Origin: a virus
DNA length: 39,896 bases
Direction: 5' to 3' (one strand)
IMG/VR virus record: IMGVR_UViG_3300047121_000317
Location: 1-39,896 of that record
Position numbers and translations under genes: made by a program. The notes below the pieces were generated by a model. The model searched no databases, was not told the DNA's origin, and was given only the letters and a program-made list of their open reading frames with translations. Position 1 is the first letter of the stretch, and each line of letters starts with the position of its first letter. This document shows positions 16,186 through 39,528 of this stretch, one piece after another.

Positions 16186-17964
16186 ATGCCGACCGTACCT
16201 ACTAGCTTCATCCCGCAGGTCGCCCCGCAGGGGGCTGGCGACATCGGCGACTTCGCCGCCCCCGGTATCGCCCCCGCTGAGAACCTGGCAGCGCCGCAGG
16301 TCGCACGGTTTGGTCAGCAGCTCACGCAGACGGGCATGGCGGCGTTCCGGCTCGGTTCGGCGATCCAAGACGGTATCGACGAGGCGAAGACCAAGGAAGC
16401 CGACGTAGCGGCCGGCAGGGGCATGCAGGCGGTGGCCGATAAGTATTCGTCCATGATCGGCAAGGATGCCGAGGTGAACTACGACGCCATGCAGGCCGAA
16501 CTCTCCCAGGCGGGGCAGTCGGCGATGGGCATGCTCGACAACGACGTGCAGCGTCGGATGCTCTCCCCGATCCTTGCGCGCAACATGGGCATCTTCCAGA
16601 GCCGCATGGGCCAGCACCGCGTGCAGCAGCTTCGCGTCTACCAGACGAATGAGGCCACGGCCCGCGCCGAATTGAGCGCCGACTACGCCATCCAGGCGTA
16701 CTCGCAGCGCGGGCTGACGGATGCAGAGGGTCGCCCGGTCGGCCTGATTCAGTATGCGGCCAACGCCGATACCGCCGTCGATGAGATCCGCAAGGCCGGC
16801 CAGCTCATGGGCTACGCGCCTGACTCGGCGCAGATGAAGCAGCTCGAGCAGAAGGTATACGACCGGATGGCGGTCGGGATCGTAAATGGTCTGATGGCCG
16901 AGAAGAACTACGCGGGTGCCAGCGAGTTCCTGTCCGACTCCGCGACCGTGGAGAGCCTCGACGGCAAGACTCGCCAAGCGCTCACTGATTCCGTTGATGC
17001 AAACCGTCAGCGGTCGGTGGTTGGCGAACTGGCAGCGAGCATCAAGGATACCGGGCTTCTGATGTCCAAGAGCGACCCGGACACCTACTGGCAGCAGAAG
17101 GATGGCCCGGTCGAACCGCCGACGACCTTGCGCGAAGCGTTGGTTCTGACTGATCAGATTGCGGATGACCAGACTCGCAAGTTTGTCCAGGCCGAATTGC
17201 GGACGCAGTTCGCGCAGGATGATGCCCTGATTGAGCAGGAATACCGCACGCTGATTGACAACACGGAGCAGTTCCTCGCCGTGCCTGGGAACAGCCTCGC
17301 CGATATGCCGGCAGATCAGTTCGGCCGGCTCCGGCCCGTTGACCGAGCCAAGTACATGGCAGGCCAGCGGCAGCAGGACGAGATGACGGTAATGGAGCAG
17401 GTCGCACGTAACCCGGCACTTGTCGCCGAGGGCGACTGGCTTGAGCGCAACCGCAACAAGATGACGCATGCGACTTTCGTCAGGTTGATGTCGGAGCGAA
17501 ACAAGCCGGACCGTATCGTCGCCGCGACCATCGACGCTGACCAACTCAAGGCCACGTTGACTCGGAACGGTTTCACCAAGCTCGCTGACCCTCCACGCGG
17601 AGATAAGGAAGCTGCGGCGCAGTCGCTCTACATGCGAGACAACATCACGACGATCATCAACGCTGAGCAGGAGCGCGTTGGCCGCCAGCTCTCACGCGAC
17701 GAGAAGCAGCAAATCATTGACCGCGCCATCCTTGACAAGGTGTTCGTCAGCCGATGGGGTCGTGATCCCGAAGTGCCGTTCGCGTCGATGGCACCTGGTG
17801 AACTTGCGCAGGCGTATGTGACCGTTGACAAGCAGGACGTTATGCTCCGCGACATTCCGCCGGCACGCATGACGCAGATCAGAAATTCTCTTGAGCGTTC
17901 CGGACTCCCGACTGACATCCGCAACATCGCGGAGGCTTGGCTCCGCGCAGGCAAGCCTCAATGA
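16186..17964 (+). CDS. Internal virion protein, T7 gp15-like
   Basis: 592 residues, almost entirely alpha-helical and rich in Ala, Gln and Asp, with no membrane segment. It lies between the gp14-like gene and the giant gene, as gp15 does in T7, so it probably forms part of the DNA-ejection tube across the periplasm. Segments include IQDGIDEAKTKEADVAAGRG and the tandem helical stretch LADPPRGDKEAAAQSLYMRD. No enzymatic motif is visible. Its stop codon overlaps the next start by four bases (ATGA). Function is inferred from position and composition. Confidence 0.78.
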   Translation: MPTVPTSFIPQVAPQGAGDIGDFAAPGIAPAENLAAPQVARFGQQLTQTGMAAFRLGSAIQDGIDEAKTKEADVAAGRGMQAVADKYSSMIGKDAEVNYDAMQAELSQAGQSAMGMLDNDVQRRMLSPILARNMGIFQSRMGQHRVQQLRVYQTNEATARAELSADYAIQAYSQRGLTDAEGRPVGLIQYAANADTAVDEIRKAGQLMGYAPDSAQMKQLEQKVYDRMAVGIVNGLMAEKNYAGASEFLSDSATVESLDGKTRQALTDSVDANRQRSVVGELAASIKDTGLLMSKSDPDTYWQQKDGPVEPPTTLREALVLTDQIADDQTRKFVQAELRTQFAQDDALIEQEYRTLIDNTEQFLAVPGNSLADMPADQFGRLRPVDRAKYMAGQRQQDEMTVMEQVARNPALVAEGDWLERNRNKMTHATFVRLMSERNKPDRIVAATIDADQLKATLTRNGFTKLADPPRGDKEAAAQSLYMRDNITTIINAEQERVGRQLSRDEKQQIIDRAILDKVFVSRWGRDPEVPFASMAPGELAQAYVTVDKQDVMLRDIPPARMTQIRNSLERSGLPTDIRNIAEAWLRAGKPQ

Positions 17965-20900
17965 TCGAACCCGATATCAACCAGCAGATGGCGCGTTTCG
18001 CGCCTTCCCAGAATCCAACGGACCCCGGTTTCGACGCCATTGAGAAGGCGGTCGCCGGCATGTCTGGCATCCCGATGCCAGCGCCAGAACCTGTGGACAT
18101 GGATATTGACCGCGCCGTGCAGGACATTGCCGCGCAGCGGAAGCAGGACATGGCGTCCTCGCTCATGGCTGCATCCGAGGTGAACCCCGACGAGGCGGCG
18201 CAGGCCGATGTTCTTGGCAAGCGGTTCGGCGTGGGGCAGGACATCGCGCTGCGGAACATGGCCGAAATGCGCCGGCAGGCGATGGTCCAAGACACGGAGC
18301 GCATGGATCTCCTGCGGAAAGACCCGGTTCTTGCCAGATACATCGCCGACCGTGAGTTTGCCGCGCAGGCGAGCGACGATGTCGGTGTCCTGTCCATGCT
18401 TCGACCGCTGGTGCTCGAGGCTGCGATGCTTCAGACCCAGGGCGGATTGTTCCGTGTGGTCGGCGCGGGTTACGAGCGCGGGGCAATTGTGTCCGAGCGC
18501 GGCGATATCGGTGCGAAGGCGATGGCCGGGTTCGCTGAACCTGGCGATTTCGACCGTGCCAAAGAACTCACGCAGCGCATGCAGGCGCTCGGCCAGCAGG
18601 GACTGGTTGGTTCAGCGGCAGAGATGATCGCGCAGAACGTCAGCCAGCTCCGCACTATCGGCACGGCAACCGTTGGCGGCGCTGCGCTCGGCAGCTTGGC
18701 AGGTCCGGCGGGCACCGTGGCTGGTGGCGCACTTGGCGCGTCGGCAGGTGTTGTGGCTGGTACAGGGACGATGGAGGCCGGAAACCTGTACCTCGACATG
18801 CGCGAGCAGGGAGTGTCCGATGACGCGGCTATCCCAGCAGCCATCGCTGGCGGTTTCCTAAACGGCCTGATCGAAGTGGTCGGCATGAAGATCGCGTCCG
18901 CTCCGTTCAAGGCGCTCGCGTCCAAGGTGATCCGCGAGGAGGTTTCCAAGGCCATCGCGCAGCCGACCATGCGTTCGGCGCTCATCGCTGCCGGCAAGTC
19001 ATATGGCCTACAGGTCGGTGGCGAAGCGGCTGAAGAAGGATTGCAGGAAATCGTTGGCATCGCGTCCGAGGAGATCGCCAAGGCGGCGGATGGGATTGAT
19101 AGCGAGACGAGCCTGCGCGATGCCACGGGCCGCGTCATTGAGGCGTTTGCCTACGGCGGCATGGCATCTGCTTTGCTCGGCGGCATCGGCCCCGGCGCGA
19201 ACCTCGTCGTGGACCTGCGCCGCGCTAGCGCCACGCAGCGGCAGCAGGACTTCTTCAACGGTCTCGCCGAGAATCGCAAGGAAAGCAAACTTGCCCAGCG
19301 CAACCCGCAGGGATACGAGCGTTTCCTTGCCGCACAGGCCCAGGACACGCCGGCAGAGACGATCTACATAGACGCAGCCACCGCCCGTGACGTGCTCGCG
19401 CAGAGCGGCACCACGACGGCGCAGCTCGAGGAACTTCTCCCTGGCATCCGCGAACGTCTGGAACGGGCTGTGGAGACGGGCGGCGACGTGACCATCCCGA
19501 CCTCGCAGTTTGGCGCTCGGCTCGCCAACACGAAACTTGGGAACGCGCTGCTGCCGCACATGCGTTTGTCGCCGGACGCCATGAGCGCCACCGAAGCGCA
19601 GGCGTTTGCGGCTGAGCGGCAGGCAGTTGTGGAGGAGGCGCGCACGATCCTTGCAGCAAAGCAGGAAGCCGACGCGGCGTTCGTCGCCGAGGCGCAGCAG
19701 GTCGAGGACGAGGCGTTTGAGCAGGTCCGTGCGGTCGGCAAGTTCACCGACATTGAGGCGCGGACGATTGCCAAGTTGCGTCAGGCGATGGTGGTCGTTG
19801 ACGCGGCCGAAGCCGGTATGACGCCGGCGCAGTACCAGCGCGAGCGTGGAGTGCCGTTGCGGGTGCGCGGCGAAGGTATGGCTGCACCAGTTGCGCCATC
19901 TCAGGCCGTTGCTCCGCTTACGGACACCGAAACCAATCCACTCCAAACCGCTCTCGGCGAACTATCGACACGCATCGAAGAACAGAACGCAAAGGTTGCA
20001 AACGAAAAACTTGAAAGTTCGAATCCTATTGCCAAGGCCGTGGCCGGAATCAAGGATTCCGTGCGTCGCCTAAACGACGCAATCAACGCTAACAACGAGG
20101 TTGAAATTGCCAATCAGGCATGGCGGCTTCGCAATCGTCTTGACAATAATCGTCAAAACCTAGATGCCAACACGCTTGCCGCAGTGGAAGGAATGCTCGC
20201 CAAACTTGATGCGTTGATGAAACAGCGTGGCATTGAAATTGATGACCCTACCGGACAGGATACAGATGATAATTTGGTAGCACATAAAGTTGTTTCGTGG
20301 TTGCCTGCTGCAAATGGTGAAGTAGGAACGCTACGCGGCGAAGGGACAATTACGCAAGTCATTCAACCTGGAATTCAGCGAGTTCAAGGCAACAAGCGCG
20401 AAGGGTTGCAAAGAGGCGAAGTTGTAGTTACAGCGCATACTGCTGCGGAAACCGCCCAGCGTGAATCTGCGCAGGCCCAGCGTAAGGCCGAAATGCGTGC
20501 GAAGCTGGAGGCAAAATTTGCGCCAGGGGAAACGTCAGCAGCGCAACAGGCGGGGGGGACGCTTGAGCAGGCGGCTATCTCCCGCATGGACGCCGACTAC
20601 CTCGCGGCGGTCGAGCGCGGCGACATGGCGACCGCGCAGCGCATGGTGGACGAGGCGTCTGGTCAACCCGGACAAGAAGCCGTTACCAGCGACGAGCAGG
20701 GCAACATCGTCCCGCTGTCGCGCCGCTTCGACATCACCAGCCCGAAACTGTTTGAGCAGGCTGCTGCCAGCCCTGCCTTCTACTCCGCTCTAGAGCGCGA
20801 AATAGCGGCAATTGATTCCAAGACGCTGTCTGCCGCTAGTTGGAACGAACGCCTCAAAAGCCTAGTCAACAAGGGTGCAATCAAGGCCGACGAGCTTGAA

Positions 20901-23900
20901 TGGTCGGGTTTGCTTGACTACCTCAAGATGCACACCGGCACAATGTTTGGCATTCCTGAAGGCAAACTGCCAAAGGAAATGGTGCTTGAGTTCCTGCGCG
21001 GCAACGGCGTGCGCGTGGAGCGCGTGCAGATCGGAGGCGTCGCGCTTGAAGATCTCCGCAACGAGCATGCGCGTGCGGAAATGGAATACGACGATGCCTT
21101 GGAAGCAGAACGTGTTGCACAGCAAGGAACCGATGAGGAGGCGTGGAACGCAGCCGATGCTCGGCTTTCAGAAGCGCGCCGCAATGCATCCGTGTTGGCT
21201 GCGCGACTTGATGAAGCAGAGCGCGCAGCTGCTCCGAAGTACCAGCGTTACACGCTCCCTGGTGGCACCAACTACCGCGAGGTGCTGCTGACGCTGCCAG
21301 CAGAAGATCGTTTGCCAGTTGGATATTCCGTTGTGCAGCAAGAAGGCGTATGGAAAATTGCCGACAATTCAGGCAACATTGTCATGGGCGATGTTTTGTA
21401 TGGAGCGACAAAAGAAATTGCAACGAGAAATGCAATTTCGTATTTGAAATCAGGACAAATAACATCAGTTTTTCAATCAAGTCATTGGAATCAACCGAAT
21501 GTCTTGGTTCACCTCCGCATGAACGACCGCGTCGATGCCGACGGCAAGCGCGTGCTGTTCGTGGAAGAAGTACAGAGCGACTGGGGACAGGCTGGCGTCA
21601 AGCGTGGATTCGTCAATCAGCGTGCTGCCGATGAATCAGAACTGGCCGATCTGTTGCAGCAACAGGAAGCAACCCCGACCGATGCACGTAAGAAGCAGAT
21701 TGCCCGTGTTCAGGAAAGACTGACGAAAGATGAATACAACATTTCACGCGCACCGTATGTGGAAACCACAGACGGCTGGCTAAACCTGGGTCTAAAGCAG
21801 ATCATGCTTGAGGCAGTTCGTGGCGGTTACGACCGCGTTGCGTTCGTGACCGGGCAGCAGAGCGCGGAGCGGTATGACTTGAGCAGGCAGGTCAGCCGCG
21901 TTGTATATCAAGACAACTACAGCGGAGGCGTAAGGGTAAAGTTGGATGGTCCGCCAACGGCTGGCCGCATTATTGCTTACAACAAAAATGGAGAACCCGT
22001 TGTAAACAAGCCTGTAGAAACGCCATCCGAACTGGAAAATATTGTTGGCAAGGAAGTTGCCCAGCGGCTTTTGGATGCACGACCACAGCCAGGTAATTAT
22101 GCTGGAATTGGCGTACGTCAACGTGAACTATCCGGCCTTGATCTCAAGGTCGGCGGCGAGGGCATGCAGAACTTCTACGACAAGATTGTCCCGGTGGCGA
22201 TGGGCAAGCTGTTGAAGAAGTACGGTGGAGAAAAGCTCAAGGTTGCCCAAATTGGTGGTGGCCAGACGCCCAAGCGAAGTGGAACAATCCGCTTTGAAAG
22301 CACTGAAGTTGCGGAAGACTTCATGGTCGATTTGAGCGGCGAAGGATTTGAAGGCGAAAATTACGACAACCCAAGTGGTTCTGAGGTTGATTTCAACGAC
22401 GTTGGCGAACCCGCTTATAGCGCGTTTGTTCGGCTTGCAAATCAATACGGCGGAACGATCAAGGAAACAACGTCGTTTGAACCATCTGGAGTAACAGAGC
22501 AGCTGGCGTTTGACATCACGCCTGAAATGCTCAAGAAGCTTGAGTCTGGCCTGCCGCTGTTTCAGGCTATGCCTGCGCCCGGTCCGGCCCGCGGCGGATT
22601 CGACCCGCGAACTCTGAACATTCTCATCGGCGAGGGTGGCGACGTATCGACGCTCGCGCACGAACTGATTCACCTCCGCGTCGCCGAATACCTCCGCATG
22701 GCGCGAAGCGCCACGCCGCCTGCGCGTGTGATGGATGACCTTGATACGTTGTTCGTGTTCATGGGCGTGGAAGGGTCCACGTTCCAGGAGCGCCTTGACA
22801 ACTACGAGAGGATGACGATTGAACAGCGCAGGCCGCTGGAGGAGAAGGCCACCTACAACTTCGAGATTTACCTGTACGAAGGCAAGGCTCCAAGCGTGGA
22901 GCTGCGCGGCGTGTTCGACCGTCTCGCCGCGTGGATGCGTCGCGTGTACAAGTCGATTCGTGACGACCTGAACGCCATCTACCGCCGCGAGTTTGGCACC
23001 GATCTCCCGATCCTGACGCCCGAAGTCCGCTCCGTGTTCGACCGCATGCTCGCGTCAGAGGAGCAGATCAAGCGGCAGGAAGCCATCAGTGGCATGAAGG
23101 GTCTGTTCCAGACCCAGGCCGAGAGCGGCATGGGAGACGCCGAGTGGGCCGCGTATCAGGCCATGCAGCAGGAGGCTACGGACGCTGCCGTCACCGACCT
23201 GAACACCGCCAGCATGCGGCAGCTTCAATGGCTCGGGAACGCACGCGCCCGCATCCTGCGCGACCTTCAGAAGAAGCACGAAGCCAAGCGCAAGGAAGTC
23301 ACCGCCGAGGTGGCTGCTGCCGTCAAGGTGGAACCCGTGTACCGTGCCATGACCTACCTGCGCTACGGTCGGTTCGTGGACACGGACGGGGCCGAGGTAG
23401 AGGTTGAAGGCACGCACCGCCTGGATATCGAGAAAGTCCGCGCCATGTACGCCGGCATGCCGTCGGCCGAAAGCGTCGAGCCGATCCGCGCCACGGGGAT
23501 GGCCGTGCCGGCGAACGTGCGCCCGGACATCACCCCGCTCGGGACTGGCAAGTACGGGATGCTCGGCCGCGACGGGTTGGACCCGGATGTGGTGGCCGAG
23601 ACATTCGGCTACGGCAGCGGCGACGAGATGGTCCGCGCCTTGCTCGCCGCCAAGCCCATGAAGGAAGCAGTTGCCGAGCGCACGGACGCCGAGATGCTGC
23701 GGCGGTTCGGTGAAATGAACACCCCTGCGGCGCTTGAGGCCGAGGTGCAGAAGGCGCTTCACAACGAGGCTCGCGCTCGAATGGTGGCCGTACAGTTGCG
23801 GTTCGTGTCCAAGGCTCAGACGCCTGTGCGCGTGATGCTTGATGCGGCAAAGCAGGTCGCAGCCGATCTGATTTCAAGCATGACCGTCCGCGACGTTCGC

Positions 23901-26621
23901 CCAAACGACTTTGTGGCTGCCGAGGCGCGGGCGGCCAGGGACTCCGAGTACCTCGTCAAGTACGAGGCGCAACCGCGTATCAGCGGTCGTGCCGAATACG
24001 ACCGCGTCCGTCTTGCGGCGCTGGCCGCCGGAAGCAATGAGGAGGACGCCAATACCGCCGCCACGGCAGCACAGGAGGCGTTGGTTGCGGCGCAGACGGA
24101 GGCCCGGTCGCAGGAATTCCGTGAGCGGTTTGGGCCGACCACGCCACAACAGGCGCTGATCCGCGCCCAGCGTGCACAGCTCTATCAGAACCAGCTCGCC
24201 GCCGAGGCGCTGCGGGTCAAGGAGTACGTGGACAAGCAGGTCAAGTACCTGCGCGGCGTGCTGCGAGACAGCAACGTCAAGCGCATGGGCGCTGCCGCGG
24301 CTGACCAGATTGCCGGCCTGCTCGAGCGGTTCGAGGTGGCCCAGGTCAGCCTGAAGCGTCTCGACGAGCGCCGCACGATGGCGAAGTACCTCGCCGACCT
24401 CGAGGCTGCTGGCGTGGTGCCGGACATCGCCGAAGAGATCACCGACGAGGCACGCCGCGTCAACTACAAGGAACTGAAGGTCAGCGAGTTCCGCGACCTG
24501 GTGGACGCCGTCCGTCAGATCGAGCATATCGGTAAGAACGAGCAGAAGATGCGTCTGGCCGAGGAGCGTGCTGCGTTCGAGGAAGTGCGCGACGAGATCG
24601 TCACCCGCATCCGTGCGGTCGGCAAGGTGCGCGAACTCCAGATCGACCCTCGCACGCCCCTGACCGGGATCGGCCGCACGGCGGCGTTCCTGCGCGGGTT
24701 TGCTGCTCAGCACCTGAAGGCGGCGTCCATCGCCCGCATCCTCGACGGCGGCAAGGAGGACGGACCGCTCTGGAACACCATCATCCGCACGGCGAACGAC
24801 GCCTCCGACATGGAGACCCGCATGCGGGCCGAGGCGTCCTTGAAGCTCGCAGAGATCCTGAAGCCCGTGTTCGCGCTCGGCAACATGGGTGGTAAGGGGA
24901 TGTTCTTCCCGTCCATCGGTCGCAGCCTGAACCGCGAGGCGCGGATTTCCATTGCCCTGAATCTCGGCAACGACGGCAACCGCCAGCGTCTCCTTGACGG
25001 CGAAGGCTGGACGATGGAGAAGCTGCAGCCCGTCCTCGAGAGCCTGACCGAGGCTGAATGGATGGCCGTGCAGCAGGTGTGGGACTTTATCGACGGATAC
25101 CGCCCGGAGATCGCCGCCAAGGAGCGCCGGCTGTATGGCAAGGAGCCGACCTGGGTGACGCCCGTGCCGTTCACCGTCCGCACGTCGGACGGCAAGGAAG
25201 TCGCCCTCCAGGGCGGCTACTACCCGGTCAAGTACGACCCGGTGGCATCCGACCGCGTGGCGACCGTGGACGCTGCCGAGGATGCCAAGCGCGACCTTCA
25301 GGGCGCGTACACGGCGGCCACGACGCGGCGGTCATTCGTCAAGGCCCGTGCGAAGGAGGTCCGTGACAGGCCGCTCCTGTACACGCTCGACGCCGCGTTC
25401 AGCGGGGTGAACGACGTGATCCACGATCTGTCGTGGCACGAATGGCTTATCTCCACGAACCGTCTGCTGAGGGACACGCAGTTCGCCAACGCCGTCCGCG
25501 AGACGCGTGGGCCGGAGTTCCTGAAGCAGCTCCGCGACTGGTCGAAGGACAACGCGACCGGGGCGCGTGGCCAGCAGGTCGCCGGCGAGTCGGTCCTGTC
25601 CTGGCTCCGGCAGGGCATCAGCGCGTCGGGCCTCGGGTTCAACGTGGTGAGTGCTGCCATGCAGGTCACTGGCTTCAACCAGAGCATCGTCCGCATCGGT
25701 GCCAAGTACGTTGGGCAGGGCATCGTGCAGTTCTCGACGAGTCCGTTTGAGTCGTCCAAGATGGTCGCCGAGAAGAGTTCGTTCATGGCCGAGCGCGGTC
25801 GCACGCAGTTCCGCGAGATCAACGAGATCAAGAACCGTGTACGCGGACAGACAGAGGTGGCACGTCGGGTGACGGCCGGCACCTACTTCCTGATGATGAA
25901 TATGCAGCGGTCGGTGGATATCCCGACCTGGCTCGGCGCGTACCAGAAGGCGCTCGACGCCGGGAAGGACGACGCCAGGGCTGTGGCGCTCGCCGACCAG
26001 GCGGTGCGCGACTCGCAGGGCAGCGGCCTTGTCTCGGACTTGGCAGCCGTGGAGCGCGGCGGCCCGGCCATGAAGCTGTTCACGGTGTTCTATTCGTACA
26101 TGAATACCGTCTACAACATGACCGCCGTGCAAACGATGACGGCCCGCAGCAAGGGCAAGTTGGCCGCCGACTACGCCATGCTGCTGGTGGTCCCGGTCGT
26201 GCTCGGCTACGCCATCAAGAGCGCAATCCAGCCCGACGCCGGCGAGGACGAACTTGATCCCGAGGCGCTTGCCCGCAAGCTTGCCGCCGAAGAACTGTCC
26301 TACCTCATGGGCACGATGGTCATCGTCCGTGAGTTTGGTGGGGCCGCGCAGCTTGTAACGGGCGCCGAGGGCGCTCGCATGGGCTACGGTGGCCCTGCCG
26401 GCCTGCGGGCCGTCGGCGAGGTCTACGGGCTTGCCACGCAGGCGGGCCAGCTCGAGTTCGACCGCGCCTTCCGTAGGGCGGCCATCAACACGCTCGGCGC
26501 GTTCACGGGCTTGCCGAGCGCCCAGGTCAACCGCACCATCGACGGCATCGAGGCGTTGGTGGAGGGGGAAGTCACTGGACCTACCGCCGTGCTTGCGCCA
26601 CTGACTGGCGTGCAGCGTTGA
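17961..26621 (+). CDS. Giant internal ejection / polyvalent protein, 2886 aa
   Basis: A single frame of 8.66 kb occupying the place of T7 gp16. Features in order: glycine-zipper hydrophobic region at about 230-280 (GGAALGSLAGPAGTVAGG), more hydrophobic helices to about 410, Ala/Glu coiled coil, then a domain at about 920-1020 (ELEWSGLLDYLKMHTG). Next a region at about 1090-1310 with TLPGGTNYREVLLTLP, WNQPNVLVHLRMNDR, FVEEVQSDW and GGYDRVAFVTGQQSAERYDL, a pattern seen in phage and plasmid polyvalent proteins. An HELIH zincin motif is at 1567-1571. The C-terminal FTVFYSYMNTVYN region (about 2640-2720) resembles large polyvalent-protein domains (LPD38-like), followed by a membrane segment at about 2738. 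Probably injected with DNA. The ATG at 17961 overlaps the previous stop. Confidence 0.9.
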   Translation: MIEPDINQQMARFAPSQNPTDPGFDAIEKAVAGMSGIPMPAPEPVDMDIDRAVQDIAAQRKQDMASSLMAASEVNPDEAAQADVLGKRFGVGQDIALRNMAEMRRQAMVQDTERMDLLRKDPVLARYIADREFAAQASDDVGVLSMLRPLVLEAAMLQTQGGLFRVVGAGYERGAIVSERGDIGAKAMAGFAEPGDFDRAKELTQRMQALGQQGLVGSAAEMIAQNVSQLRTIGTATVGGAALGSLAGPAGTVAGGALGASAGVVAGTGTMEAGNLYLDMREQGVSDDAAIPAAIAGGFLNGLIEVVGMKIASAPFKALASKVIREEVSKAIAQPTMRSALIAAGKSYGLQVGGEAAEEGLQEIVGIASEEIAKAADGIDSETSLRDATGRVIEAFAYGGMASALLGGIGPGANLVVDLRRASATQRQQDFFNGLAENRKESKLAQRNPQGYERFLAAQAQDTPAETIYIDAATARDVLAQSGTTTAQLEELLPGIRERLERAVETGGDVTIPTSQFGARLANTKLGNALLPHMRLSPDAMSATEAQAFAAERQAVVEEARTILAAKQEADAAFVAEAQQVEDEAFEQVRAVGKFTDIEARTIAKLRQAMVVVDAAEAGMTPAQYQRERGVPLRVRGEGMAAPVAPSQAVAPLTDTETNPLQTALGELSTRIEEQNAKVANEKLESSNPIAKAVAGIKDSVRRLNDAINANNEVEIANQAWRLRNRLDNNRQNLDANTLAAVEGMLAKLDALMKQRGIEIDDPTGQDTDDNLVAHKVVSWLPAANGEVGTLRGEGTITQVIQPGIQRVQGNKREGLQRGEVVVTAHTAAETAQRESAQAQRKAEMRAKLEAKFAPGETSAAQQAGGTLEQAAISRMDADYLAAVERGDMATAQRMVDEASGQPGQEAVTSDEQGNIVPLSRRFDITSPKLFEQAAASPAFYSALEREIAAIDSKTLSAASWNERLKSLVNKGAIKADELEWSGLLDYLKMHTGTMFGIPEGKLPKEMVLEFLRGNGVRVERVQIGGVALEDLRNEHARAEMEYDDALEAERVAQQGTDEEAWNAADARLSEARRNASVLAARLDEAERAAAPKYQRYTLPGGTNYREVLLTLPAEDRLPVGYSVVQQEGVWKIADNSGNIVMGDVLYGATKEIATRNAISYLKSGQITSVFQSSHWNQPNVLVHLRMNDRVDADGKRVLFVEEVQSDWGQAGVKRGFVNQRAADESELADLLQQQEATPTDARKKQIARVQERLTKDEYNISRAPYVETTDGWLNLGLKQIMLEAVRGGYDRVAFVTGQQSAERYDLSRQVSRVVYQDNYSGGVRVKLDGPPTAGRIIAYNKNGEPVVNKPVETPSELENIVGKEVAQRLLDARPQPGNYAGIGVRQRELSGLDLKVGGEGMQNFYDKIVPVAMGKLLKKYGGEKLKVAQIGGGQTPKRSGTIRFESTEVAEDFMVDLSGEGFEGENYDNPSGSEVDFNDVGEPAYSAFVRLANQYGGTIKETTSFEPSGVTEQLAFDITPEMLKKLESGLPLFQAMPAPGPARGGFDPRTLNILIGEGGDVSTLAHELIHLRVAEYLRMARSATPPARVMDDLDTLFVFMGVEGSTFQERLDNYERMTIEQRRPLEEKATYNFEIYLYEGKAPSVELRGVFDRLAAWMRRVYKSIRDDLNAIYRREFGTDLPILTPEVRSVFDRMLASEEQIKRQEAISGMKGLFQTQAESGMGDAEWAAYQAMQQEATDAAVTDLNTASMRQLQWLGNARARILRDLQKKHEAKRKEVTAEVAAAVKVEPVYRAMTYLRYGRFVDTDGAEVEVEGTHRLDIEKVRAMYAGMPSAESVEPIRATGMAVPANVRPDITPLGTGKYGMLGRDGLDPDVVAETFGYGSGDEMVRALLAAKPMKEAVAERTDAEMLRRFGEMNTPAALEAEVQKALHNEARARMVAVQLRFVSKAQTPVRVMLDAAKQVAADLISSMTVRDVRPNDFVAAEARAARDSEYLVKYEAQPRISGRAEYDRVRLAALAAGSNEEDANTAATAAQEALVAAQTEARSQEFRERFGPTTPQQALIRAQRAQLYQNQLAAEALRVKEYVDKQVKYLRGVLRDSNVKRMGAAAADQIAGLLERFEVAQVSLKRLDERRTMAKYLADLEAAGVVPDIAEEITDEARRVNYKELKVSEFRDLVDAVRQIEHIGKNEQKMRLAEERAAFEEVRDEIVTRIRAVGKVRELQIDPRTPLTGIGRTAAFLRGFAAQHLKAASIARILDGGKEDGPLWNTIIRTANDASDMETRMRAEASLKLAEILKPVFALGNMGGKGMFFPSIGRSLNREARISIALNLGNDGNRQRLLDGEGWTMEKLQPVLESLTEAEWMAVQQVWDFIDGYRPEIAAKERRLYGKEPTWVTPVPFTVRTSDGKEVALQGGYYPVKYDPVASDRVATVDAAEDAKRDLQGAYTAATTRRSFVKARAKEVRDRPLLYTLDAAFSGVNDVIHDLSWHEWLISTNRLLRDTQFANAVRETRGPEFLKQLRDWSKDNATGARGQQVAGESVLSWLRQGISASGLGFNVVSAAMQVTGFNQSIVRIGAKYVGQGIVQFSTSPFESSKMVAEKSSFMAERGRTQFREINEIKNRVRGQTEVARRVTAGTYFLMMNMQRSVDIPTWLGAYQKALDAGKDDARAVALADQAVRDSQGSGLVSDLAAVERGGPAMKLFTVFYSYMNTVYNMTAVQTMTARSKGKLAADYAMLLVVPVVLGYAIKSAIQPDAGEDELDPEALARKLAAEELSYLMGTMVIVREFGGAAQLVTGAEGARMGYGGPAGLRAVGEVYGLATQAGQLEFDRAFRRAAINTLGAFTGLPSAQVNRTIDGIEALVEGEVTGPTAVLAPLTGVQR

Positions 26622-32194: not shown

Positions 32195-32701
32195 TTAGCG
32201 AATTCGCAGGCTTGTGCCGCGTGGCAGGAGTGCTACGCCGGGGATCGTAGCGCCCGCTGCCAGCGCCTCGCGCAGCGCGGCCTTGTCGGCCTCGACGCGC
32301 ACGGCCTGGTACTGCGTGGGGAGCTGCTCGGGCGGCACGGTGACCTCGAGCGGCTGCGCGCCGCCGTTGGCCTGGACCGACAGCCGGAAACGGGCCGTCT
32401 CAATCTTGCCCTTCCCAGTGGCCTCCATCGCTTCCTTCAGGCGCTGCTTCAGGCGCTCGGCGAGAGCGTCGTCGGCAGCAGCAAGCTCGCGCAGACGCTT
32501 GGCCTCCTCGGCGCGTGCGTCGGCACGGCTCCGCAGGTGCTGGATCAGGGCCGCATAGTCATCGGCCTCGGACTCGAGCACCCCGGCGAGGCCGGCAAGG
32601 TGCTCGTCGAGCGCCGCCTGCGCTTCGACGGTGTCGCCAGCCCCGTCGAGGATGGCCTCGATCAGGGTGGCGATTTCGGTTTGAATGGCGTACAGGTTCA
32701 T
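32195..32701 (-). CDS. Gp157-family protein
   Basis: 168 residues. An N-terminal helix (MNLYAIQTEIATLIEAILDG) leads into a long coiled coil (about 25-90) and then the diagnostic LKEAMEATGKGKIETARFRL segment (about 88-107), the signature of the siphovirus Gp157 family. Streptococcus phage homologues were linked to DNA metabolism and phage resistance, but the molecular role is unclear. It often lies beside RecT or Sak-type recombination genes, as here. ATG with GAGGAG upstream. It is the last gene of the leftward operon. Confidence 0.85.
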   Translation of the reverse strand: MNLYAIQTEIATLIEAILDGAGDTVEAQAALDEHLAGLAGVLESEADDYAALIQHLRSRADARAEEAKRLRELAAADDALAERLKQRLKEAMEATGKGKIETARFRLSVQANGGAQPLEVTVPPEQLPTQYQAVRVEADKAALREALAAGATIPGVALLPRGTSLRIR

Positions 32702-32720: not shown

Positions 32721-33689
32721 TCAGAAGGGCAGTTCGTCAGCGTCGGTGGCGACGGGGACGGGTGCGGATGCGGGTGCGGTGCGGATCACGCGCATGATGG
32801 TGAGCGAGTTCCCGACGCGTGCGATGTCGAGGCGCAGCTCGCTGTCGATGGCCTGCTCGCACAGGTCCGCGTACTCAGGAACAGTTGCAGCGATCCATGC
32901 GGTCCCGTGCCCGCCGGCGGCCTGCACGGCAACGGGCTTGCCGGGACGGCGCACCACGTGGCGGATCAGGAACAGCCCCTCGTACTCGTCGGGGTACGAA
33001 TCCGCGGGCGCGGGAGCGGCGGGTGCCGCCGACGCCACGGGGGCGGGCGCAGTGGCCTCCTGCGCGGCCTTGCGCTTGCGGACGGGCTTCGGGGCGTCGG
33101 CAACGGCCGGCGCGTCCTGGGGCATTGTGGTGGCTTCCACGACCTCGGGGGCCGGGAGAGCAGCACGGTTGCGCGGTGCGTCCTCCACGATCTCCGTCTC
33201 GCCGTGTGCCTCAACGTATACAGGGGCGGCACCGAGTGCATCTGGGCAGTGCTGCTTGTAACCGCTGGAGATGCAGCGGGCGAACAGCATTGCCTTCGGC
33301 CACTTGCGCCAGTTGTCGCCGCCGAGTTGCGCTCGCCGTGCGTCATCAAGCGTGAACTCGGTGGTGCCGATTTCTTCCCACTTGTTGTCCATCGTGCGAC
33401 CGAAGAACACGATGCTGCATTCGGTGTCCGAGCACGTGGCGCGGTAGTCATACTTCCCGGCACGCTTGATCGAGGCCGCCATCAGGTTCGCGGCCAGGAC
33501 GGCTTTGCCTTTGATGATGTGCAGCCCGGTCATAGCGTCGTAGTCGGACAGACCGAGGCCGCGGCCAATGATGATCTTGGCGCACGCTGCCGCTTCGGAC
33601 TGGATATCGGGAAACATTCCCGATGCCTTGAACACCTGTGCCACCGTCATGGGGTCAAGCTGCGCCTGACCAATTCGTGCAAGTTCCAT
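32721..33689 (-). CDS. recT: RecT-like single-strand annealing protein
   Basis: 322 residues. The N-terminal half (about 10-165) is a RecT-type annealing domain: FKASGMFPDIQSEAAACAKI, GLSDYDAMTGLHIIKGKAVL, then DNWRKWPKAMLFARCISSGY. An Ala/Pro linker (about 180-235) connects to a C-terminal segment with aromatic and charged residues, ending DADELPF, which looks like the acidic tip of bacterial SSB proteins that recruits host repair enzymes. Such a tip is not usual in RecT, so a RecT-SSB-like fusion is inferred. Start at 33689 (AGGAG upstream) is preferred over an upstream frame extension. It has its own strong promoter (33745-33773). Confidence 0.85.
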   Translation of the reverse strand: MELARIGQAQLDPMTVAQVFKASGMFPDIQSEAAACAKIIIGRGLGLSDYDAMTGLHIIKGKAVLAANLMAASIKRAGKYDYRATCSDTECSIVFFGRTMDNKWEEIGTTEFTLDDARRAQLGGDNWRKWPKAMLFARCISSGYKQHCPDALGAAPVYVEAHGETEIVEDAPRNRAALPAPEVVEATTMPQDAPAVADAPKPVRKRKAAQEATAPAPVASAAPAAPAPADSYPDEYEGLFLIRHVVRRPGKPVAVQAAGGHGTAWIAATVPEYADLCEQAIDSELRLDIARVGNSLTIMRVIRTAPASAPVPVATDADELPF

Positions 33690-33744: not shown

Positions 33745-33773
33745 ACTATACGGGGGCGTAGACGGTTTGTCAA
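33745..33773 (-). promoter_or_regulatory. Strong sigma70 promoter for recT and gp157
   Basis: On the minus strand TTGACA (33773-33768), a 17-base spacer and TATAGT (33750-33745): consensus -35, ideal spacing, 5/6 -10. It overlaps the rusA stop codon. It would allow recT-gp157 transcription separate from the long upstream operon. Confidence 0.8.
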
Positions 33774-34180
33774 CCCCATACTTTCACGATTGTTTCGGCA
33801 CGGTCCCCGTACTCCTTGCACGCCGACAGGATGGCGACCTGCGAATCGTCAACGTAAACGACCCCGGTCATGGCGTCCAGGGCAGCTCTGCACGCCTTGT
33901 CCAGGTCAGGCCGGCGGGGTGACACTGGTGCCGTGGCCTTGAGGATGCCCTTCGAGGTGTAGTGGCTGGCGGGGCGCACGAAGCTGAACAGCAGTTCGAC
34001 GGCCACGACGCCCGCTGCCGGCGGTTCCGTCCACGCCTGCCGCGCCGCCAGCGCGAACACAGCGCGGTACGGCTTGACCTTGGCCGAGGACTCGAGCAGC
34101 AGGATGCGCCCGCTCCTCGAGCGCACGGCACGCTTCGATCCCTGGGGGGCTGCCTCGCCCGGTACGGTGAAAGTAATCAA
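33770..34180 (-). CDS. rusA: RusA-family Holliday junction resolvase
   Basis: 136 residues. The fold signature is clear: N-terminal TFTVPGEAAPQGSKRAVRSR, then PRRPDLDKACRAALDAMTGV and YVDDSQV, with the metal-binding aspartates of RusA (about Asp92, Asp94, Asp102, Asp111/112). RusA dimers cut Holliday junctions during late recombination and packaging-competent concatemer resolution. The start codon is TTG (34180), preceded by AGGAG about 6 bases upstream; no ATG is available. It overlaps the upstream small gene by four bases and precedes recT, forming a recombination block. Confidence 0.9.
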   Translation of the reverse strand: MITFTVPGEAAPQGSKRAVRSRSGRILLLESSAKVKPYRAVFALAARQAWTEPPAAGVVAVELLFSFVRPASHYTSKGILKATAPVSPRRPDLDKACRAALDAMTGVVYVDDSQVAILSACKEYGDRAETIVKVWG

Positions 34181-38558: not shown

Positions 38559-38705
38559 GTGAGAAATTCTGACAATTTTTTCTTACAACGTGAAATGCTG
38601 GCATTGCTCGCTATGGTGCCGCAGCATGGGCGCAACGATCACGCAGCATCAGCCTGGATCGTTTACGGTCGAAATGGACTTCGACGGAGCCGTGCCGTCC
38701 TCTAA
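38559..38705 (+). CDS. Possible small ORF overlapping the phosphoesterase start, 48 aa
   Basis: A GTG at 38559 has a good ribosome binding site (AGGGGGAAG, about 4-6 bases upstream) and opens a 48-codon frame (VRNSDNFFLQREMLALLAMV, then basic). It overlaps the phosphoesterase in another frame by 80 bases. The phosphoesterase itself lacks a ribosome binding site, so this ORF might drive it by translational coupling. It could equally be chance. Confidence 0.3.
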   Translation: MRNSDNFFLQREMLALLAMVPQHGRNDHAASAWIVYGRNGLRRSRAVL

Positions 38706-39528
38706 CTGGTCGCAGGAATTCCTGCTGATTTCCGACGCGCATATCGACAACGCGCACGCCGACCGCCAGATGTTTGACCGCCACATGCGCCAGTGCCGCG
38801 AGCGCGGGGCGCAGTGGATTTCCAACGGCGATTTCCTGTGCTGCATGCAGGGGAAATGGGACCCGCGCAGTGACACTTCGGCCTGCCGGCCGGAACACCG
38901 CGAGGGCCGCTACCTCGACTCGGTCGTCACCACGACCGCCGACTACATTGCGCCGCACGCCGACATGGCGCTCCTGTTTGCCCCCGGCAACCACGAGACA
39001 GCCATCAAGCGCCGGCACGAAACGGACATGAACGAGCGCCTGGTTGAAGCTGCCAAGGCCCGCAACACGGCGTGCCATGCATATGCAGGAAGTTATGCAA
39101 ACTGGGTGCGGTTCCTGGTGCGCAACAAAGAGCGGCGGCAAATCATCGGAAACAGCATCGTGATGTACATGCATCACGGCTACGGCGGCGGTGGCCCGGT
39201 CACCCGCGGCACGATTCAGACTTCGCGCATGGCGGTCTACCTGCCCGATGCCGACATCATCTGGACGGGCCACACCCACGACGAGTGGATCATGCCGATC
39301 CAGCGGGCGCGGCTTTCTCTGCACGGTCGCCCCTACCTAGACCGCGTCCTGCACGTACGGTCGCCCGGATACAAGGACGAGTTCAGCGAGCAGAACGGGT
39401 GGGCCGTTGAGAAGGGCATGCCGCCCAAGCCGAAGGGCGCGCTGTGGTTGCGGTTTTGGATGGAGTGTGCGCGGCGAAACGGCGTGTCAGGGCGTACCCT
39501 GCGCTTTGAAGTTCGTGAAGCGCAGTAA
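38626..39528 (+). CDS. Calcineurin-like metallophosphoesterase (complete)
   Basis: 300 residues from ATG 38626 (a GTG at 38590 would add 12). All metal motifs are present in order: SDAHI (36-40), NGD (67-69), GNHE (121-124), MHHGYG (182-187) and GHTH (215-218). Such enzymes hydrolyse phosphomono- or diesters, and phage members may act on nucleotides or nucleic acid, substrate unknown. It is the first rightward gene after the divergent promoter region, facing the leftward operon. No ribosome binding site is visible before either start. The 3' half recurs at window bases 2-457 as the redundant end. Confidence 0.92.
   Translation: MGATITQHQPGSFTVEMDFDGAVPSSNWSQEFLLISDAHIDNAHADRQMFDRHMRQCRERGAQWISNGDFLCCMQGKWDPRSDTSACRPEHREGRYLDSVVTTTADYIAPHADMALLFAPGNHETAIKRRHETDMNERLVEAAKARNTACHAYAGSYANWVRFLVRNKERRQIIGNSIVMYMHHGYGGGGPVTRGTIQTSRMAVYLPDADIIWTGHTHDEWIMPIQRARLSLHGRPYLDRVLHVRSPGYKDEFSEQNGWAVEKGMPPKPKGALWLRFWMECARRNGVSGRTLRFEVREAQ

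Follow-up and report, generated by a model that had tools for sequence, protein, structure and literature searches.

The 39,896-base window analyzed here, which constitutes an entire IMG/VR virus contig (IMGVR_UViG_3300047121_000317), carries on its minus strand a gene for a RecT-like protein expected to anneal single-stranded DNA (ssDNA), hereafter the window annealase. The gene (32721–33689) runs from an ATG at 33689 to a stop codon at 32723–32721 and, as judged by its open reading frame (ORF) and translation, encodes 322 residues; the plus strand of this interval is not the coding strand of the annealase gene. The C-terminal end of the product is ASAPVPVATDADELPF. A first-pass annotation had described the protein as a RecT with a tail similar to that of the ssDNA-binding protein SSB, and both the terminal DADELPF and the Ala/Pro linker that it had noted were confirmed. 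The fused tail is real, but that description proved too narrow, as the tip terminates a larger module, composed of a predicted OB fold, a linker and the tip itself, which occurs on three annealase families.

The window annealase matches two PHROG families annotated as "RecT-like ssDNA annealing protein" (PHROG 561, E 1.5e-7, and PHROG 4171, E 2.2e-7) and is unmatched by the Pfam RecT model PF03837 at E up to 10 and by NCBIfam models at E up to 1. A whole-protein AlphaFold2 model (43-row alignment) has two confidently predicted domains, at about residues 9–150 and 235–302, separated by a disordered linker (residues 158–226, predicted local distance difference test score, pLDDT, <50) and followed by a mostly disordered tail (residues 305–322). 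The annealing domain was delimited at residues 8–155 (33225–33668, minus strand), where pLDDT is mostly about 90 and which, in the full model, aligns to lambda Red-beta (7ujl_A) with Z 8.3 and a root mean square deviation (rmsd) of 3.5 over 129 residues. This match came from a second-look structure comparison; the 50 rows listed by Foldseek for the full model, most of them OB proteins, did not include it, and a sequence profile of the annealing domain had no match among PDB chains at E up to 1. The modeled fold is assigned to the RecT/Red-beta type, that is, it is predicted to be the same as that of lambda Red-beta and E. coli RecT (PF03837, TIGR01913). Red-beta likewise has a separate C-terminal domain, which, according to one study, contacts proteins including lambda exonuclease and potentially the host SSB (PMC9512822). 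The C-terminal domain of the window protein differs in that it is predicted to be an OB fold and ends in an SSB-like tip, and PF03837 does not match the protein.

An Ala/Pro-rich linker (residues 158–231; 32997–33218, minus strand) leads into the C-terminal module (residues 232–322). Modeled alone (32-row alignment), the module had a pLDDT of about 95 across its first 70 residues and the order strand-strand-strand-helix-strand-strand, which recurs in the full model. On the basis of this order and of its structural neighbors, residues 233–302 (32784–32993, minus strand) are predicted to form an OB fold, which answers for residues 235–302 the question raised by the first-pass annotation as to whether residues 235–322 contain such a fold. 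Foldseek placed RPA, mitochondrial SSB and RecO among the first matches of the module (best E 2.2e-3), and the second-look comparison aligned it to RecO (Z 10.1, rmsd 4.6, 81 residues), PriB (Z 8.8, rmsd 2.6, 71 residues), Rim1 (Z 8.8, rmsd 2.7, 74 residues) and, among many OB folds, bacterial SSB (Z 8.1, rmsd 2.7, 74 residues). The remaining residues, 303–322 (32724–32783, minus strand), form a flexible tail with low pLDDT, the linker part of which is ragged in the alignment of relatives. It ends in DADELPF (residues 316–322; 32724–32744, minus strand), which has the features of an SSB-type tip: acidic residues and then a hydrophobic residue, proline and phenylalanine at the very end, on a tail predicted to be disordered.

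The C-terminal half of the protein, as modeled, resembles bacterial and phage SSB (PF00436) as a whole and not in its last residues only, the OB fold, flexible linker and acidic tip ending in Pro-Phe being common to both; it differs in that the OB domain is joined to an annealing domain. That the OB domain might be a relative of SSB at the sequence level was not supported, as PF00436 was unmatched by the annealase (E up to 10), by the module alone and by the record, and profile comparisons lent it no support. The profile alignment of the module to three phage SSBs covered its last ten columns only, with a probability of 4.3% that is weak by itself, and that of a second tip-bearing family to the same SSBs covered the last nine columns only (probability 2.1%). 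Weak as they are, these tip-only alignments sit where a common tip would be expected to show.

Conservation and distribution of the C-terminal module

The terminal Pro-Phe was invariant in an alignment of 27 modules (27/27), in which the stretch preceding the tip was ragged, and was present in 44 of the 53 distinct module sequences found by means of the start motif (loci L001–L146). The first-pass annotation had named absence of the tail from relatives, together with a lack of interaction with host partners of SSB, as grounds for abandoning its reading; the first of these does not apply, the tail being conserved. Among the other nine, one was cut by a contig end (L062), one was frameshifted (L108) and seven were tipless (L132, L134, L138, L139, L141, L142 and L143), with two further tipless modules, L007 and L010, not being caught by the start motif; the stop codon of L010 overlaps the next start codon. 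In comparison, just one of 1615 control ORFs of at least 100 residues from the window and the same loci, drawn from all six frames and hence mostly not real genes, ended in Pro-Phe, and none (0/1615) carried at least two acidic residues among the seven that precede such an end. A tail arising by chance was ruled out by the conservation of the tip and the control count.

Across 51 distinct DNA sequences of Pro-Phe-ending modules (window included), the proline is encoded by four codons and the phenylalanine by two, and the ten residues preceding the last nine occur in 27 forms. The residue before Pro-Phe is L, V, M or I in all 51, and the seven residues before Pro-Phe contain a mean of 2.5 acidic residues; in the ten-residue stretch that precedes the last nine, the mean per seven is 0.3. 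Two related Erf proteins, one ending in IPF (L238) and the other in IPL (L239), offer a possible natural mutant of the tip. Several RecT-like relatives have EELEF or EEVEF ends, or DPW near the end (L176, L177 and L199; L196, L202 and L204), and these may represent further tips of an acidic-aromatic kind.

Scanning with the whole protein returned 77 loci, which matched end to end, in the annealing domain only or in the C-terminal part only. The C-terminal-only matches reach 96% identity and have a different N-terminal domain, that of lambda Bet, as exemplified by L047 (TIGR01913, E 1e-32; PF03837, E 2.8e-33). A scan with the module found it also on the Erf proteins L133 and L134 (PF04404, E 2.7e-18 and 4.7e-22). 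The module occurs, then, on three annealase families: RecT-like, lambda Bet and Erf. No match to it was found in named phages at E up to 1, and pattern-based scans of bacterial genome contigs (169 + 32 stretches tested) yielded no relative that could be confirmed for either the module or the N-terminal domain.

In the window the annealase gene is flanked upstream by a gene for a RusA-like resolvase (33770–34180, minus strand; PF05866, E 3.3e-16) and downstream by a Gp157/Mu Gam-like gene (32195–32701, minus strand; PF05565, E 1.1e-33; PHROG 253). Counting loci with enough flank, RusA lies upstream of the annealase in 22/22 loci with Bet and the module and in 22/25 with RecT and the module, and Gp157 lies downstream in 21/21 and 12/25, respectively. 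Annealing domains, we infer, were swapped at this position with retention of the end bearing the OB domain and tip. That a C-terminal domain can be shuffled between annealase families is already known for a helix-turn-helix domain, which is found at the C-terminus of Sak4, RecT and Erf/Sak3/Rad52 proteins and likewise places one end on several annealase families, as attributed to domain shuffling between phages (PMC8093625); the shared domain of the window annealase differs from it, its predicted fold being OB and its tip SSB-like.

Scans with the three N-terminal domains, using the best 80 of 302 RecT-like, the best 80 of 98 Bet and at least 18 Erf relatives, produced a set of 142 distinct C-termini, which fell into 19 clusters; these counts lean to close relatives, cover annealases only and are of distinct sequences, as loci of different scans often came from the same contigs. 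Pro-Phe ends were present in 64 of the 142 C-termini and in five clusters, with 14 of the 19 clusters having none. The five comprise the window module (51/61), a cluster shared by Erf and Bet (6/8), a Bet cluster (4/4), a mainly Bet cluster (2/8) and a RecT-like singleton, placing the tip on four C-terminal clusters besides that of the window. Proteins cut by a contig end were excluded from the count, as were 12 in which the end of the annealing domain could not be placed (L218, L225, L227, L229, L230, L231, L243, L244, L283, L284, L285 and L300); ten of these, all but L230 and L285, do not end in Pro-Phe. By eye, the other tip-bearing C-terminal domains look like OB folds, and comparison of the module profile with one tip-bearing and one tipless C-terminal family gave low probabilities (3.5 and 4.2%, respectively). 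A further cluster (e.g., L185, L289 and L307) is a tipless domain common to Bet and RecT-like annealases, with 29 distinct C-termini, 14 Bet and 15 RecT-like.

Separate SSB genes and tip-bearing annealases

The first-pass annotation had held that the phage lacks its own polymerase and SSB. This stands for the families searched, as the record has no match to the PF00436 SSB or to the DNA polymerases PF00476 and PF00136; other types of polymerase and SSB were not searched for. In eleven named phages read around the annealase, the annealase itself never ended in Pro-Phe (0/11), and in three of them a nearby gene annotated ssb encodes a product with an SSB-type tip: LDDEEVPF in S-LBS1, SDEDVPF in S-H1 and FDDDIPF in E. 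coli phage tonn. The S-LBS1 annealase has 37% identity to the window annealase over residues 12–168. A similar division was seen in phages related through their capsid protein, DC33 and ctQRb9 each pairing a tipless RecT with a separate SSB that ends in DMDDDIPF or DMNDDIPF. In a third capsid relative, ctEw122, the RecT is likewise tipless and PF00436 is unmatched; the minus strand of this phage (L337, MW202640.1) contains a 106-residue open frame ending in KIDDDLPF, which is possibly a divergent SSB.

A larger capsid group was formed from the 20 of 80 capsid-relative loci with records of at least 20 kb. Three of these records have an ssb gene, seven have the module, none has both and ten have neither. 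The seven module annealases all end in Pro-Phe (one RecT-like, four Bet and, by eye, two Erf-like), whereas the three SSBs end in DMDDDIPF and the RecTs of the same records are tipless. In a fourth record, G124, the RecT lacks a tip and no ssb was matched. For the 11 records in which an annealase was found, the exclusion between ssb and module has a Fisher's p of 0.024, which becomes 0.007 once the window and the three named relatives are added. We regard this exclusion as suggestive only, because the phages are related and the records may be incomplete.

PF00436 was also unmatched in all 34 module-bearing records, those with tipless modules included, and in 28/28 further records, 19 of which were picked for the tip (including that of L239, ending in IPL) and nine of which were tipless. 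As to the sensitivity of this search, it detected an SSB in all four named phages picked as ssb carriers or possible carriers, two of the four scoring over the family cut-off, in two of the three capsid relatives and in three of the 20 capsid-group records; divergent SSBs could escape it.

Proposed role of the tip

We consider it rather likely that the tip is a working mimic of the SSB tail that brings host partners of SSB to annealed phage DNA. In this proposal, the N-terminal domain would anneal complementary strands, as its family and fold suggest, and the OB domain, judging from its fold, most likely adds contacts to ssDNA or to a partner. The tip most likely docks in the pocket by which host enzymes, among them RecO, PriA, exonuclease I and RecQ, would hold the SSB tail. 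The docked enzymes would thereby reach annealed phage DNA as they do via SSB, without SSB in between. In many bacterial SSBs the acidic tail is described as contacting proteins that include RecO and PriA, and a separate phage SSB is described as stimulating its annealase through its tail, NDYPPF (PMC5928155). The system described in that study, Sak4 and a separate SSB of phage HK620, is similar in that an annealase works with an SSB-type tail, and differs in that the tail is there on a separate protein and in the window phage on the annealase itself (PMC5928155). Red-beta deprived of its C-terminal domain is reported to be still able to anneal but not to recombine (PMC5052646). An annealase with its own SSB-type tip was not described in the titles and abstract openings of the open-licence literature searched.

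Several observations weigh against this proposal. No Foldseek match of the module fell below E 0.001 and its top structural neighbor by Z was SilF, a metal-binding OB protein (Z 10.9, rmsd 1.8, 69 residues), and for these reasons DNA binding by the OB domain is no more than a possibility. Nine modules are genuinely tipless, so the tip is not essential everywhere. Half of the capsid group (10/20) has neither module nor ssb, its phages are related and its records may be fragments. Finally, PF00436 was unmatched in all 50 records with tipless annealases, because of which the absence of ssb does not predict the tip outside the capsid group. That the tip is present because ssb is absent is, as a general rule, unsupported, and this, together with the tipless modules, counts against a reading of the first-pass annotation in which the tip is needed because the phage has no SSB.

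Other roles for the tip are conceivable. The tail is acidic and predicted to be disordered, as would be expected if it folded onto the DNA-binding surface of its own protein until displaced by ssDNA, regulating loading rather than recruitment; charge alone, however, would give no reason for a terminal Pro-Phe that is invariant and preceded by a hydrophobic residue, and we think such autoinhibition unlikely. The tip might bind the product of the neighboring RusA or Gp157 gene rather than host proteins, and the regular position of RusA upstream of module-bearing annealases would fit. Yet similar tips are found on other C-terminal clusters, Gp157 was undetected beside 13 of the 25 RecT genes with the module, and both RusA and Gp157 were mostly undetected in loci with other C-termini, the tip-bearing ones of these clusters not having been checked, which together make a phage partner improbable.

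The anatomy of the protein would be identical, and nothing separates the two, if the tip were a decoy that ties up host SSB-binding enzymes and keeps them away from host or phage DNA, as an anti-repair function. A decoy would not need linkage to an annealase, yet Pro-Phe tips occur on three annealase families, a weak argument given that only annealases were sampled; we give this explanation little credence. Least probable is that the tip, inherited from a fused SSB or through exchange between related phages, is now a functionless remnant. The nine tipless modules would be in keeping with such neutrality, as would the IPL end of L239 where the close L238 has IPF, but Pro-Phe persists even in modules sharing as little as 46% identity with that of the window, with synonymous change at the proline codon and a freely varying linker.

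Beyond the role of the tip as a mimic of the SSB tail, it is possible, although we hold it to be somewhat doubtful, that three annealase families have repeatedly acquired, within a single chain, the part of SSB that does its work, namely an OB domain and a tip for docking partners, merging functions that are separate in some capsid relatives and bypassing recognition of the host SSB tail. The host range of RecT and Red-beta in recombineering has been explained by the need for the annealase to recognize the SSB tail of the host (PMC10711431). If this more far-reaching reading is true, annealases of the window type would bypass this step, which is held to restrict RecT and Red-beta hosts. An annealase with its own SSB-like tail would be another solution to the host-range problem and could be less host-dependent in recombineering. 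The set of proteins described here would also provide a natural domain-swap series for probing the roles of annealase C-terminal domains.

The virus record and its likely host

The major capsid protein of the record and its counterpart in Limnohabitans phage DC33 are 83% identical; the terminase of the record has 69% identity to the terminases of two podovirus genomes from Manatee Spring. Limnohabitans is a betaproteobacterial, freshwater genus, and on the strength of these two matches the host of the window phage is likely to be a freshwater betaproteobacterium. The taxonomy line of DC33 (L336, PQ492659.1) reads Inoviridae, yet its genome is 39 kb and its capsid protein matches those of tailed phages.

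Positions 1–300 and 39072–39371 of the window form a gapless repeat of 96% identity, and the end of a phosphoesterase-like ORF is present twice (35–457 and 38590–39528). By its repeated ends, the record seems to be terminally redundant and to combine two strain variants. The plus strand contains an open frame of 2,894 residues (17937–26621), beside which may be set, by label, the very long genes of the capsid relatives ctEw122 and ctQRb9 that are annotated as crystallin beta/gamma motif-containing protein.
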